Shown one piece after another: positions 1-64,000 of a stretch of 64,000 nucleotides of DNA (position 1 is its first letter; every line of letters begins with the position of its first letter). Source of the stretch: Flavivirga amylovorans (GTDB taxonomy: Bacteria > Bacteroidota > Bacteroidia > Flavobacteriales > Flavobacteriaceae); contig NZ_JAUOEM010000004.1 in the NCBI RefSeq assembly GCF_030540875.1, positions 186,001 to 250,000 of the forward strand. Direction: 5' to 3'. The notes below the pieces were generated by a model. That model was not told the DNA's origin. It saw only the letters and a program-made list of their open reading frames with translations, and did not search any database. The position numbers and the translations under genes were made by a program.

Positions 1-648
1 ATAATCTTTGGGGTTGTAAGTTGCTCCTAATGTTTCAAACTTCCATAATAATTCTCCATATAAATTTAACACGTAAACATAGCCATCGTTACTTGGCTGA
101 TAAATGGTATTGTTAAAAACTAAAGGAGTCGCTCTAATTCTTCCATTAGTCTTGAATTTCCAGTTTATATGTCCATCTTTTACATTAATGGCATAAAGAT
201 TCCCATCACCAGAACCAATTAGAACATTATCGTTAACTACCACAGGAGAAGCCATAAAATACTTCCAACCTGAATGGTTGTCAGACAAAATTTCTTGCAT
301 TTCAAATGTCCAGTTTAAGCTTCCATCTTCGATGTTAATTGAATACAAACGATTATCTCTGCTCGAAATATATAAAGAAGCGTTTGATATTTCTGGAGAA
401 GAAACTATAGCACCATTCGTTTTATATTTCCATATTTGGTTGCCGTTTAACTTGTTTAATGCATATATATAACCATCAGAGCTTCCAAAATAGATGTTGT
501 TCCCAGAAACTACAGCAGTACCACGAATTGCGCCATGGGTTTTAAATTGCCATTTAATTTTTGGGTTTTCTATGTCTTGTATAGCTAAAGATGATTGCGA
601 AATACTAAGAAAAATTAGCAAAAGGCAAATCATTGAATGTCGTTTCAT
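1..648 (-). CDS. PQQ-like beta-propeller repeat protein, partial (C-terminus outside window)
   Basis: The frame is open from an ATG at 648 to the window edge, giving 216 codons. Residues 1-25 form a signal peptide (MKRHSMICLLLIFLSIS). At least four outer-membrane-assembly/quinoprotein-like blades follow, each with the pattern W-x-F/Y-x-T-x-G followed by an aromatic and GS-x-DG-x-[IV]-Y-x-[IL]-N (for example KWQFKTHGAIRGTAVVSG and FGSSDGYIYALN). Such propellers act as secreted or periplasmic binding scaffolds or as quinoprotein dehydrogenases; the class cannot be decided without the C-terminus. The start lies 24 nt behind the stop of the next gene upstream on the same strand, so the two are probably co-transcribed. 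Confidence 0.85.
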   Translation of the reverse strand, partial: MKRHSMICLLLIFLSISQSSLAIQDIENPKIKWQFKTHGAIRGTAVVSGNNIYFGSSDGYIYALNKLNGNQIWKYKTNGAIVSSPEISNASLYISSRDNRLYSINIEDGSLNWTFEMQEILSDNHSGWKYFMASPVVVNDNVLIGSGDGNLYAINVKDGHINWKFKTNGRIRATPLVFNNTIYQPSNDGYVYVLNLYGELLWKFETLGATYNPKDY

Positions 649-61887: not shown

Positions 61888-61910
61888 TTCAAGTCCTAAA
61901 TTTTGAAATA

Positions 61911-61950
61911 AAAAAGGGAGCTATCAACAACAATTGGTAGCTCCCTTTTT
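61911..61950. terminator. Bidirectional terminator after odhB
   Basis: AAAAAGGGAGCTA and TAGCTCCCTTTTT form a 13-bp stem with T-runs on both strands. It ends sucA-odhB on the plus strand and would also end a minus-strand transcript that carries the small frame at 61962-62063. Confidence 0.9.
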
Positions 61951-61961
61951 CTTCAACTTAA

Positions 61962-62063
61962 CTAACTAAAACACATTATAAGGTTTATAGAAATAACAAT
62001 AACGACCAAAACACCTAATCCTATCATACAGTATTTATCAATAACATCATTATCCTTTTCCAT
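61962..62063 (-). CDS. Possible 33-aa single-TM small protein
   Basis: ATG 62063 opens a 33-codon frame: a charged N-terminus (MEKDNDVIDKYC) followed by one hydrophobic helix (MIGLGVLVVIVISINLIMCF) and a stop 11 nt before a bidirectional terminator. The helix-plus-terminator arrangement speaks for a real small membrane protein. There is no recognisable promoter or homologue to cite, so it remains a candidate. Confidence 0.4.
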   Translation of the reverse strand: MEKDNDVIDKYCMIGLGVLVVIVISINLIMCFS

Positions 62064-62102: not shown

Positions 62103-62176
62103 AGATTAAAAACTCTGCACCTATGTCAGCGCAGAGTTTTGTGAAAAATTCTCTCTCTCAAAGAATTATTAATAGC
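62103..62176 (-). ncRNA. Candidate small RNA 2 of a tandem pair
   Basis: The minus-strand unit starts (predicted) near 62176 behind the -7-like TACCTTTA (62181-62188) and ends at the hairpin AAAACTCTGC/GCAGAGTTTT (62109-62140) with TTTTTAATC. Its 5' end, GCTATTAAT-A-ATTCTTTGAGAGA, closely resembles RNA 1. It has no reading frame of note. The palindrome AAATACG-N8-CGTATTT lies at 62209-62230 upstream. Confidence 0.5.
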
Positions 62177-62208
62177 GCTGTAAAGGTATGTTGCAAGGGT
62201 GGAAAAAA

Positions 62209-62230
62209 AAATACGCAGTTCTACGTATTT
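62209..62230. promoter_or_regulatory. Palindromic activator-site candidate for small RNA 2
   Basis: On the minus strand, AAATACG-N8-CGTATTT is centred at 62219.5. The centre is 38.5 bp from the end of the -7-like box, exactly as in the RNA 1 unit. Confidence 0.55.
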
Positions 62231-62236
62231 TTAAAT

Positions 62237-62276
62237 TAGAAGATACTATTTTAAAATAGAAGATACTATTTTAAAA
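62237..62276. repeat. Perfect 20-bp tandem duplication
   Basis: TAGAAGATACTATTTTAAAA occurs twice head to tail (62237-62256, 62257-62276) between the terminator of RNA 1 and the activator-site candidate of RNA 2. Confidence 0.9.
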
Positions 62277-62342
62277 AGCGAGAGCTCTAAATCATTACAA
62301 TTTAGAGCTCTCTTTAATTCTCCCTAAGAACTAATTAATAGC
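62270..62342 (-). ncRNA. Candidate small RNA 1 of a tandem pair
   Basis: The minus-strand unit starts (predicted) near 62342 behind the -7-like TATCTTTA (62347-62354) and ends at the perfect hairpin GAGAGCTCTAAAT/ATTTAGAGCTCTC (62280-62312), followed by GCTTTTTAAAA. The 5' part GCTATTAATTAGTTCTTAGG is shared in outline with RNA 2. The segment GGAGAATTAAA (plus-strand 62313-62323) can pair with the leader of the response-regulator mRNA (63038-63048). Confidence 0.5.
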
Positions 62343-62374
62343 ACTGTAAAGATATGTTGCAGGCATGAAATAAA

Positions 62375-62396
62375 AAATACGCACTTCTACGTATTT
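62375..62396. promoter_or_regulatory. Palindromic activator-site candidate for small RNA 1
   Basis: AAATACG-N8-CGTATTT is centred at 62385.5, one base behind the stop codon of the response regulator and 38.5 bp from the end of the -7-like box. Confidence 0.55.
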
Positions 62397-62397
62397 T

Positions 62398-63030
62398 TTA
62401 CAAATGTGCTTTATTTAAATTAGCCCAAATTGAAAGTGATGTAGGTTTTTTATCTAAGCCTAACTTAGCAACTATGTTGCTTCTATGCTTATCCACAGTA
62501 CGAACAGAAATAGATAAGTCTTCTGCTATATCATGGCTTGTTTTATTTTCGGAAATGAGTTTTACTATTTTTAGTTCAGATTTAGTTAACGAGTTTAATA
62601 TGTCTGGTTTTTGTTCTAACGTACTTGCGTTTAAATAAGATGCAATTTCTTCACTAAAATATGGTGTGCCGTTTATAACATGTTTAATGCAGGTTTCAAT
62701 TTCCTCAATGGCAAATTCTTTTAAGATATATCCAAATACGTTAAATTCTTTGGCTTTATCGTAAAGTTCTTCTTCTTTATCAAAAGTAATCAGGATAACT
62801 TTAGTATTTAAATTGTTTTTTTTACAAGCTTCTGCGATTTCTAGTCCTGTTTTATGAGGCATTCTTATATCAAGAATGGCAATTTCTGGTTTTAGTTTTA
62901 CTATAAGATTATAGGCAGTATTTCCATCCTGCGCACTTCCTATGATATTAAAACCCTTGGATGTCAAAAAATCAGTCAGACCTCTTAACATCAACGGATG
63001 ATCATCAGCAATCACTATTGAGGTGTTCAT
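62398..63030 (-). CDS. NarL/LuxR-type response regulator
   Basis: A 210-aa protein: receiver domain (1-120; acidic pair DD at 9-10, phosphoacceptor D54 in AILDIRMPHKTG, Lys in GYILKEF) and a LuxR-type helix-turn-helix at the C-terminus (LTKSELKIVKLISENKTSHDIAEDLSISVRTVDKHRSNIVAKLGL). No histidine kinase gene is in the window. Directly behind its stop codon is the first of two identical-type palindromes, each serving a candidate small RNA gene; these are plausible targets. It lies about 70 nt downstream of the retropepsin gene on the same strand. Confidence 0.95.
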   Translation of the reverse strand: MNTSIVIADDHPLMLRGLTDFLTSKGFNIIGSAQDGNTAYNLIVKLKPEIAILDIRMPHKTGLEIAEACKKNNLNTKVILITFDKEEELYDKAKEFNVFGYILKEFAIEEIETCIKHVINGTPYFSEEIASYLNASTLEQKPDILNSLTKSELKIVKLISENKTSHDIAEDLSISVRTVDKHRSNIVAKLGLDKKPTSLSIWANLNKAHL

Positions 63031-63101
63031 TACTTGAGGAGAATTAAAATGCTATTAATTAAAAATGTAATTTACACTTATATATATGTTTAACTATATT
63101 T

Positions 63102-63545
63102 TTACAGTTTTAAATATAGATATTTCTTTTCATAATCTATTACGGCTTTAGCTTTTTTTAAGATATCGGCACCTATAATGCCATCAACAGGCTTAGAATT
63201 ATGATTTATCAAAGCAGTATTTACATGAGTGAGATTAAATAAAACTAAAACTACTTTGTTGCGTTTCCATTTTCCAATCTTTATTTTATTTTTTTTAGAC
63301 ATTTTTGTTTCCATGTCTGTAGCACCTGCACCCGCAGCTTTAATAACAGAATCTTCTGTTTTTAGTTTAAACGTTTCAACAGCTTCAAAACCTACACAGG
63401 AATTTGATGCACCAGTATCTAAAATGAATAATCCTTTATGACCATTTATAGTTGCTTTTATTTCGAAATGATTTGTTTTGGTAAAGCGTAGTTTTACTTT
63501 AACGTATCCTTTGTCAAGAAGAAACTCTTGCAGTGTTTTTTCCAT
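63102..63545 (-). CDS. Retropepsin-like aspartic protease
   Basis: A 147-aa single-domain protein with the aspartic protease motif D43-T-G-A-S (GLFILDTGASNSCVG), the flap region preceding GAGATDMETKMSK, and the second conserved block PVDGIIGADILKKAKAVIDYE. It has no signal peptide, so it is probably cytosolic, and would act as a homodimer like retropepsins. Its start lies 32 nt inside the end of the CHAT gene, so translation is coupled. The substrate is unknown; the neighbouring CHAT protein is an obvious candidate partner. Confidence 0.9.
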   Translation of the reverse strand: MEKTLQEFLLDKGYVKVKLRFTKTNHFEIKATINGHKGLFILDTGASNSCVGFEAVETFKLKTEDSVIKAAGAGATDMETKMSKKNKIKIGKWKRNKVVLVLFNLTHVNTALINHNSKPVDGIIGADILKKAKAVIDYEKKYLYLKL

Positions 63546-64000
63546 AAGATTTTTTAATTCTCAACAGTAAAAGTAATATAATCAGGATGATAAACAGGCT
63601 AATGACGATATAAATTAAATGACTATTGCTACTACTGGGCTCTTTTAATTCACCGTAATAAACAAAGGCGCTCCAGTAATAAGGCGATTTCTTTATGTTA
63701 CTAATGGTCTCATCTTTTAAGTAATCTAATTTAGACTGATGGTTTGAAATATAAGCAGATCGATTGCTGCTATAATTTTTATAAAAGGATCGTATGATTT
63801 GAGACGTAGATAGATCGTTTATTTGCCATAAAGAAAACAGGACATTTTGTGCTCCAGCATATTGAAATCCGCGTGCTATACTCATGGCGCCTTCACCTTT
63901 ATATAATTTCCCAACACCTGTTTCACAGGCACTTAAAACTACTAAGGTTGCATTTAAATTGAGGCTATATAGCTCGTTTAGAAACATAGTGTCTTCATAA
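63514..64000 (-). CDS. CHAT-domain protein, partial (N-terminus outside window)
   Basis: The frame is open to the window edge; the visible C-terminal 161 residues hold the end of a CHAT (caspase-like, TPR-associated) protease domain: LVVLSACETGVGKLYKGEGAMSIARGFQYAGAQNVLFSLWQIND with the catalytic Cys, and YYWSAFVYYGE. A membrane helix (HLIYIVISLFIILIILLLLL) and a short basic tail follow. The usual N-terminal TPR repeats and the catalytic His lie outside. The membrane-anchored C-terminus is a notable feature. It is coupled to the retropepsin gene by overlap. Confidence 0.92.
   Translation of the reverse strand, partial: YEDTMFLNELYSLNLNATLVVLSACETGVGKLYKGEGAMSIARGFQYAGAQNVLFSLWQINDLSTSQIIRSFYKNYSSNRSAYISNHQSKLDYLKDETISNIKKSPYYWSAFVYYGELKEPSSSNSHLIYIVISLFIILIILLLLLRIKKSYGKNTARVSS

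Follow-up and report, generated by a model that had tools for sequence, protein, structure and literature searches.

A tandem small-RNA-like module beside a NarL-type response regulator gene in Flavivirga amylovorans and related Flavobacteriaceae, and its candidate feedback on the regulator

The GacA-RsmX/Y/Z and UvrY-CsrB/C systems combine a LuxR-type response regulator, an upstream palindrome and several small RNAs. In the LuxO-Qrr system of Vibrio, the response regulator activates several small RNA copies that also repress the regulator's own mRNA. Type I toxin-antitoxin loci such as tisB/istR place a tiny hydrophobic protein beside a small RNA. Within the Bacteroidota, FopS/GibS of Bacteroides are multicopy small RNAs in which a single-stranded 5' seed precedes a terminator and pairing occurs near start codons; in the available part of the source, FopS works with the RRM protein RbpB and has no tie to an adjacent regulator (PMC11697453). 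Rfp18 of Flavobacterium psychrophilum is described, in the part of the report at hand, as a small RNA conserved in Flavobacteriaceae (PMC9723704).

The locus considered here belongs to Flavivirga amylovorans, a member of the Flavobacteriaceae, and lies in a window of 64,000 nt (contig NZ_JAUOEM010000004.1, positions 186,001 to 250,000). Behind a LuxR/NarL-type response regulator gene, two copies of the same module follow each other on the minus strand at a spacing of 166 bp (Table 1). A preliminary description had proposed this duplication, and recomputation recovers it in full, including the 38.5 bp from the palindrome centre to the end of the -7-like box and the predicted 5' end shared by both copies. 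The folds of RNA A and RNA B are more stable than those of shuffled sequences (z -4.1 and -3.8). Neither RNA matches an Rfam family at gathering score, Flavo-1 included, and all sub-threshold matches are to unrelated families; a search of the open-licence PMC literature likewise returned nothing matching the RNA or the locus arrangement. The absence of an Rfam match and the conservation across Flavobacteriaceae relatives agree with the earlier suggestion that this is a new Bacteroidota regulator-RNA locus.

Table 1. Features of the locus, with positions in the 64,000-nt window
Feature	Position	Strand	Basis
Likely shared terminator (hairpin, A/U tracts) in the small ORF-sucB interval	61910..61951		strong; fold -23.9 kcal/mol, z -7.1
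33-aa single-TM ORF MEKDNDVIDKYCMIGLGVLVVIVISINLIMCFS	61962..62063	-	relatives in 66/81 loci; 295 synonymous vs 120 non-synonymous single-change codons
RNA B (predicted): GCTATTAAT 5' end, SL1 with GAGAGAG, weaker terminator; probable small-ORF leader and/or small RNA	62103..62176	-	fold -23.7 kcal/mol; R1 E 2.9e-6 (RNA B is 1 of 52 R1 training rows); weaker U-tract in B than in A copies
-7-like promoter box B TACCTTTA	62181..62188	-	sequence
Operator palindrome B (predicted) TACGTAGAACTGCGTA	62212..62227	-	sequence pattern
Small RNA A (predicted): GCTATTAAT 5' end, hairpin SL1 with AGGG, terminator	62272..62342, 3' end estimated	-	fold -25.8 kcal/mol; covariance model R1 E 3.8e-11 (R1 trained on the same RNA family)
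-7-like promoter box A TATCTTTA	62347..62354	-	sequence; present in relatives
Operator palindrome A (predicted), core 62378-62393 TACGTAGAAGTGCGTA	62375..62396	-	sequence pattern
Response regulator gene, LuxR/NarL-type, 210 aa, receiver + GerE HTH	62398..63030	-	Pfam Response_reg 1.6e-23, GerE 1.3e-11
RNA complements in regulator leader: ATTAATAGC 63051-63059, TTTAATTCTCC 63038-63048	63038..63059	-	8-29 nt 5' of start codon; conserved in relatives
Retropepsin-like aspartyl protease gene, upstream neighbour of regulator	63102..63545	-	Pfam Asp_protease_2 3e-13

By analogy, the locus resembles LuxO-Qrr in its logic and GacA-Rsm in its regulator type, and lacks a defining feature of each. As in LuxO-Qrr, complementarity to the regulator's own mRNA is found, with 32 of 81 loci as exceptions by rank. 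Unlike LuxO-Qrr, the regulator is of the NarL and not the sigma54 type, no Hfq match is present and a small membrane ORF is linked; the likeness is one of logic. As in GacA-Rsm, a LuxR-type response regulator gene adjoins small-RNA-like units, which it would control, whereas no CsrA match is found here, the palindrome lies at about -43 and base pairing is indicated. The small ORF differs from tisB/istR in that the RNA lies on the same strand and upstream of it, not opposite. Like FopS/GibS, as they appear in the available part of the source, the RNAs are multicopy and carry a single-stranded 5' seed, a terminator and pairing near a start codon; unlike them, they adjoin a regulator gene and occur in 10 genomes without an RRM_1 match (PMC11697453). 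No model of the Rfam copy used, which may or may not include FopS/GibS, matched at gathering score. Rfp18, compared by description alone and from part of its source, shares family-level conservation with these RNAs (PMC9723704).

The reading favoured here, with a probability of roughly 0.7, is that the NarL-type regulator activates both RNA A and the unit of RNA B and the small ORF, and that the RNA pairs with the regulator leader in a negative feedback. A signal would lead to a phosphorylated regulator, which would bind the TACGYAG-N2-CTRCGTA palindromes about 43 nt before the RNA starts and activate A and B. Promoter A would yield a terminated small RNA of about 70 nt, and promoter B a paralogous RNA at the 5' end of a transcript from which partial read-through would give the membrane protein of about 33 aa. 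The free 5' end of the RNA (GCUAUUAAU) and/or the SL1 strand (GGGAGAAUU or GAGAGAGAAUU) would pair with the regulator leader near its start codon. Pairing of RNA A, and perhaps of RNA B, would block or lower translation of the regulator without Hfq, CsrA or an RRM_1 protein. Other signals could feed the same loop through a PAS-LuxR protein or a third, response-regulator-like protein encoded beside the same core. Comparison of relatives establishes the module with its operator and terminator structure, the small ORF and the complementarity, whereas activation, binding, read-through, repression and any further targets are inferred. The locus bears on small-RNA regulation in Bacteroidota without Hfq, and it assembles a promoter, a regulator, an RNA, a likely target site and a small protein in a compact conserved system where each step is open to direct laboratory tests.

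The palindrome AAATACG-N8-CGTATTT (22 bp) occurs at exactly two sites in the 4.86-Mb genome, both in this locus, and the reversed pattern is absent from that genome. A looser form was found in 25 of 149 family genomes, often in tandem, compared with 0 for the reversed control, and the palindromes are therefore not due to chance. Module counts refer to loci that had been retrieved by the palindrome or the RNA core. Among these, CTATTAAT has an upstream palindrome in 223 of 485 occurrences and four control 8-mers in 8 of 405, a contrast inflated by that choice of loci. The distance between palindrome end and RNA start is 35 nt in 203 of 215 modules and 36 nt in 10 (search window 30-45), which places the palindrome centre about 43 nt before the predicted RNA start. 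The operator consensus, TACGYAG-N2-CTRCGTA, corresponds to a 7-2-7 inverted repeat TAC...GTA, the heptamer layout of sites bound by NarL-type regulators. Palindromes near other genes and without an RNA module were seen at G000:C7:641587 (L009) and also in L008, L012, L016, L024 and L027; they are possibly chance sites or possibly further regulon members.

Solved structural relatives of the regulator include VraR, EvgA, DesR and NarL, and its score against the NCBIfam GacA/UvrY model is 99 bits (cut-off 280 bits). The same RNA core is also found beside a PAS-LuxR gene (PAS_3 + GerE), mostly between folC and murF, where the palindrome TACTCAAWTTGAGTA occupies the same place relative to the RNA as the TACG-type palindrome. 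Across 240 modules, with regulators recognised by short protein patterns at most 2.6 kb upstream, TACG-type operators have a response regulator upstream in 159 cases and PAS-LuxR in 0, and TACTCAA-type operators have PAS-LuxR in 26 and a response regulator in 0; the remaining 55 modules lie on incomplete stretches, have no recognised regulator or carry another operator type. Since operator type and adjacent regulator change together, the regulator is supported as activator of the neighbouring palindrome promoter, and this covariation is the best evidence in the sequences for each regulator acting on the palindrome beside it. The earlier proposal that the regulator drives two RNAs hence gains from the adjacency, the covariation and the two minus-strand units; its likening to GacA-type regulators is limited to layout because CsrA was not found in the ten genomes searched. 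That proposal did not mention the complementarity to the regulator leader, the small membrane ORF behind copy B or the occurrence of the core beside other regulators.

The activating sign of this control would follow from the position of the site. A position of about -43 alone cannot separate activation from repression, and no regulator ORF was seen at the locus in one genome (G040), both of which would fit a regulator that represses these promoters or the binding of the palindromes by another regulator. Such an arrangement is nevertheless unlikely, as the tracking of regulator type by operator type argues against an unlinked binder and the strict spacing would suggest an activator.

Besides the two LuxR-type regulators, a third protein, about 221 aa long and with only a weak receiver match, is encoded next to the RNA core in a few loci. 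The representative in L115 was considered as a LuxR-type regulator and rejected on a sub-threshold Pfam receiver match (E 0.0014) and the lack of a GerE domain. In L224, L229 and L253, the core or a variant follows a response-regulator-like protein of about 221 aa, with a TTACGG..CCGTAA-like palindrome upstream in L229 and L253 and a weaker one in L224. RNA modules are kept with no regulator ORF seen at the locus in L041 (G040), where the palindromes are perfect, and in L234 (G121); the regulator may have moved elsewhere. In L059, L069 (stretch incomplete), L094, L052 and L079, the RNA start goes with TACC-type palindromes, and the protein patterns recognise no regulator.

A terminator-like hairpin is present within 110 nt in 194 of 215 modules. 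The preliminary description had proposed a search of related genomes and a covariance model; the search yields the 25 of 149 family genomes given above, and in an alignment of 52 sequences 14 of 14 pairs of the terminator stem show changes on both sides. The rows of this alignment (A1), from which model R1 was built, were hand-picked among the first 75 sequences of a non-redundant set of 113, and one of them (L091) is cut at the wrong end and has no RNA start. The two terminator stems had been called unrelated in sequence. They do differ within the window, but the statement is too strong, because comparison of relatives shows a CTCT...AGAG pattern common to the two types, each of which can stand behind the A core. 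The SL1 sequence 5' of the terminator reads AGUUCUU-AGG-GAGAAUU in A copies and is of the AAUUCUUU..GAGAGAAUU type in B copies, and predicted folds contain a U-A pair in 115 cases and a C-G pair in 14 at position 10. As evidence of compensation these pairs were set aside: SL1 segments are only weakly more stable than shuffles (median z -1.0; below -1.5 in 44 of 138), and RNAalifold did not call SL1 on the 52-row alignment; judged from the modelled folds, the hairpin is likely to exist.

On the same strand and 3' of the RNA copies, an ORF of about 33 aa with one hydrophobic helix is found in 66 of 81 loci, after four of 70 flagged ORFs (L058, L065, L082 and L130) were dropped as spurious. It matches no Pfam family above cut-off and no fitting NCBIfam family. 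In 39 pairs that diverge by 5-25% and are not independent of each other, 295 codon changes are synonymous and 120 are not (71% synonymous, compared with 23% expected at random), a pattern from which the small ORF is judged to be under purifying selection. This count uses 53 of the 66 ORFs, aligned at a conserved Asn close to the end of the helix, and constancy at that Asn is therefore partly due to construction. The median distance from the start of the last preceding RNA copy to the ORF start is 106 nt, and the hairpins of B copies are followed by fewer T's than those of A copies (median 4 and 6 of 10, p 2e-7). The short distance and the fewer T's make read-through of the B terminator plausible, and RNA B probably serves the small ORF as a leader that is read through in part.

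The same distance and the weaker U-tracts of B would also suit the proposal that both units are leaders (attenuators) of the small membrane-protein mRNA and that A is a duplicated leader without a trans function of its own, as would the occurrence in two other genera of operator, promoter and small ORF with no RNA. This is quite unlikely in view of the A copies, which have the stronger U-tracts and an unchanged 27-nt core in 47 of 70 cases (9 of 53 in B copies), and of the PAS-LuxR loci, 10 of 13 of which, among those viewed, have the RNA end at most 19 nt from the murF stop codon and therefore no room for a small ORF.

The regulator leader holds complements of both the RNA 5' end and the GGGAGAAUU strand. 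TAATAGC is present in 54 of 109 regulator start regions and TCCC/CTCC in 60 of 109. The comparison for TAATAGC comprised eleven neighbouring gene families (two of them with 3-4 members) and 150 other starts, with counts of 0/35 for sucA, 0/75 for sucB, 0/29 for tatD, 0/39 for ansA, 1/84 for the protease, 0/24 for PAS-LuxR, whose leaders carry no RNA complement, and 0/150 for the other starts; TCCC/CTCC occurs in 2 of 75 sucB and 14 of 150 other starts. In an earlier locus set, TAATAGC was found in 40 of 81 regulator starts and 9 of 840 background starts, and TCCCT in 31 of 81 and 12 of 840. None of these counts is adjusted for relatedness, and shared descent inflates them.

The median gain of the predicted duplexes over those of shuffled RNAs is -3.9 kcal/mol at regulator starts and -1.1 to +2.0 in other gene groups. 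Set against 400 background starts, the leader duplex is among the top 5% in 49 of 81 loci and falls outside in 32; against shuffled leaders its median z is -1.5 (below -2 in 30 of 81). CTCTCT leaders co-occur with GAGAGA RNAs (12/16 vs 14/65, p 1e-4, uncorrected for relatedness). Fine co-evolution of RNA and leader is not seen, since the own leader is hardly preferred over the regulator leaders of other species (mean rank 0.46 of 1). Within the window, RNA A finds its best partner among 46 ORF starts at the regulator (-21.8 kcal/mol; next -16.2), and for RNA B the regulator start (-14.6 kcal/mol) falls outside the best three, sucA (-20.7) being first. The order of the two complements in the window matches that of their counterparts in the RNA, and one RNA therefore cannot pair with both as a single duplex. 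Negative feedback by base pairing on the regulator mRNA is the most likely meaning of this predicted complementarity.

Because the RNA core is constant, further targets are probable; seed searches in 12 same-genus genomes gave no clear candidate. The pattern AATTCTCCC..ATG was rejected at 144 matches compared with 140 for the reversed control, summed over these 12 genomes, and TTAATAGC..ATG, which exceeds its control 1.8-3.8 fold per genome among the matches listed, was set aside as confounded by composition and codon use. The sucA gene, which ranks second for RNA A and first for RNA B among the window's ORF starts, was dismissed as a target, as TAATAGC and TCCC/CTCC occur in 0 of 35 sucA relatives.

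The RNAs might instead titrate an RNA-binding protein in the manner of RsmY/Z or CsrB with CsrA, for which the AGGG at the SL1 loop, the multiple copies and the adjacent LuxR-type regulator could be cited. Searches for CsrA, RRM_1 and Hfq each gave 0 matches in the 10 RNA-bearing genomes and matches in some of 14 control genomes, including one in a Bacteroides for RRM_1. With these results, and with RNA complements in the regulator leader, sequestration is very unlikely. UAGGGA is an RRM motif, and an RRM protein bound via the UAGGGA segment was rejected for want of an RRM_1 match in the 10 genomes. Least credible of all is that the palindromes belong to the regulator gene as terminators or repeated hairpins: palindrome A does lie 3' of its stop codon, with T's after it, but the 35-nt spacing holds also for copies that follow another RNA and for the TACTCAA palindrome, which is unrelated, and many perfect palindromes precede TTGTTTGG or similar with no T-run.

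Both copies are kept in 12 of 12 same-genus genomes searched, as the preliminary description would have expected of close relatives, and the regulator adjoins them in the 7 of these that were viewed. Further afield, the strict RNA core occurs in at least 115 stretches of named genomes, with 19 named genera among 80 matches listed, including Algibacter, Flavivirga, Hyunsoonleella, Olleya, Lacinutrix, Formosa, Tamlana and Mangrovimonas; other matches listed carry names at the level of Flavobacteriaceae, Flavobacteriales or Bacteroidia. Model R1 has matches in 55 of 148 family genomes at E 1e-3, an upper figure because false matches were among the loci inspected. One of these, C6:201081 (E 3e-5), was examined as a third RNA in this genome and rejected as an ordinary-looking terminator behind an ORF with no operator; among 36 loci viewed, L231, L239, L240, L243 and L244 are likewise ordinary-looking terminators, and L228 and L234 have no recognisable operator. 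Across the phylum, stricter filters left R1 matches in 3 of 247 sampled genomes at E 1e-5, all Flavobacteriaceae, and the module pattern was found in 6 of 296 genomes of the order, five of them Flavobacteriaceae and one chance-like. In the samples searched, modules were found solely in Flavobacteriaceae, where at most about a third of the sampled genera carry them. No module was found in order- or phylum-level searches of a large genus, g127, which is possibly Flavobacterium (a guess).

The regulator itself has matches at E 1e-40 in 7 of 20 genomes (19, mostly chosen as RNA-less, and this one). In G027 and G012, where the regulators show 58 and 54% identity, the gene has sucB on one side and a TPR-HisKA_3 histidine kinase gene on the other. 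Behind the regulator lie a palindrome and a -7-like box, a promoter that would drive a small TM ORF directly, the RNA core being absent; TAATAGC is missing from the 60 nt ahead of the predicted regulator start. RNA-bearing loci have the aspartyl protease gene directly upstream of the regulator in all 77 complete loci (of 81), where G027 and G012 have the histidine kinase. The RNA-less layout of these two genomes suggests that the RNA is younger than the regulator, the palindrome and the small ORF. A broader reading, tentative and somewhat less probable than its opposite, is that a family-wide small RNA acting without Hfq, CsrA or RRM_1 was born from the 5' leader of the mRNA for the ~33-aa membrane protein and was copied as stand-alone RNAs. 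An identical seed would then have passed to the control of two or more LuxR-type regulators, on which this reading mainly leans, each with its own operator, and probably of a third response-regulator-like protein, so that several signals would converge to silence the founding response regulator, which would have lost its neighbouring kinase gene. The locus would then be a possible case of a small RNA arising from a leader and spreading to new regulators.

The surroundings of the regulator also vary further upstream. A gene for a TPR-CHAT protein (864 aa; window 63514-64000 and beyond on G000:C8, L028:1815-4409) precedes those for the aspartyl protease and the regulator here, as it does in L029, L042 and L045. 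Other relatives have a divergent TatD gene in its place.
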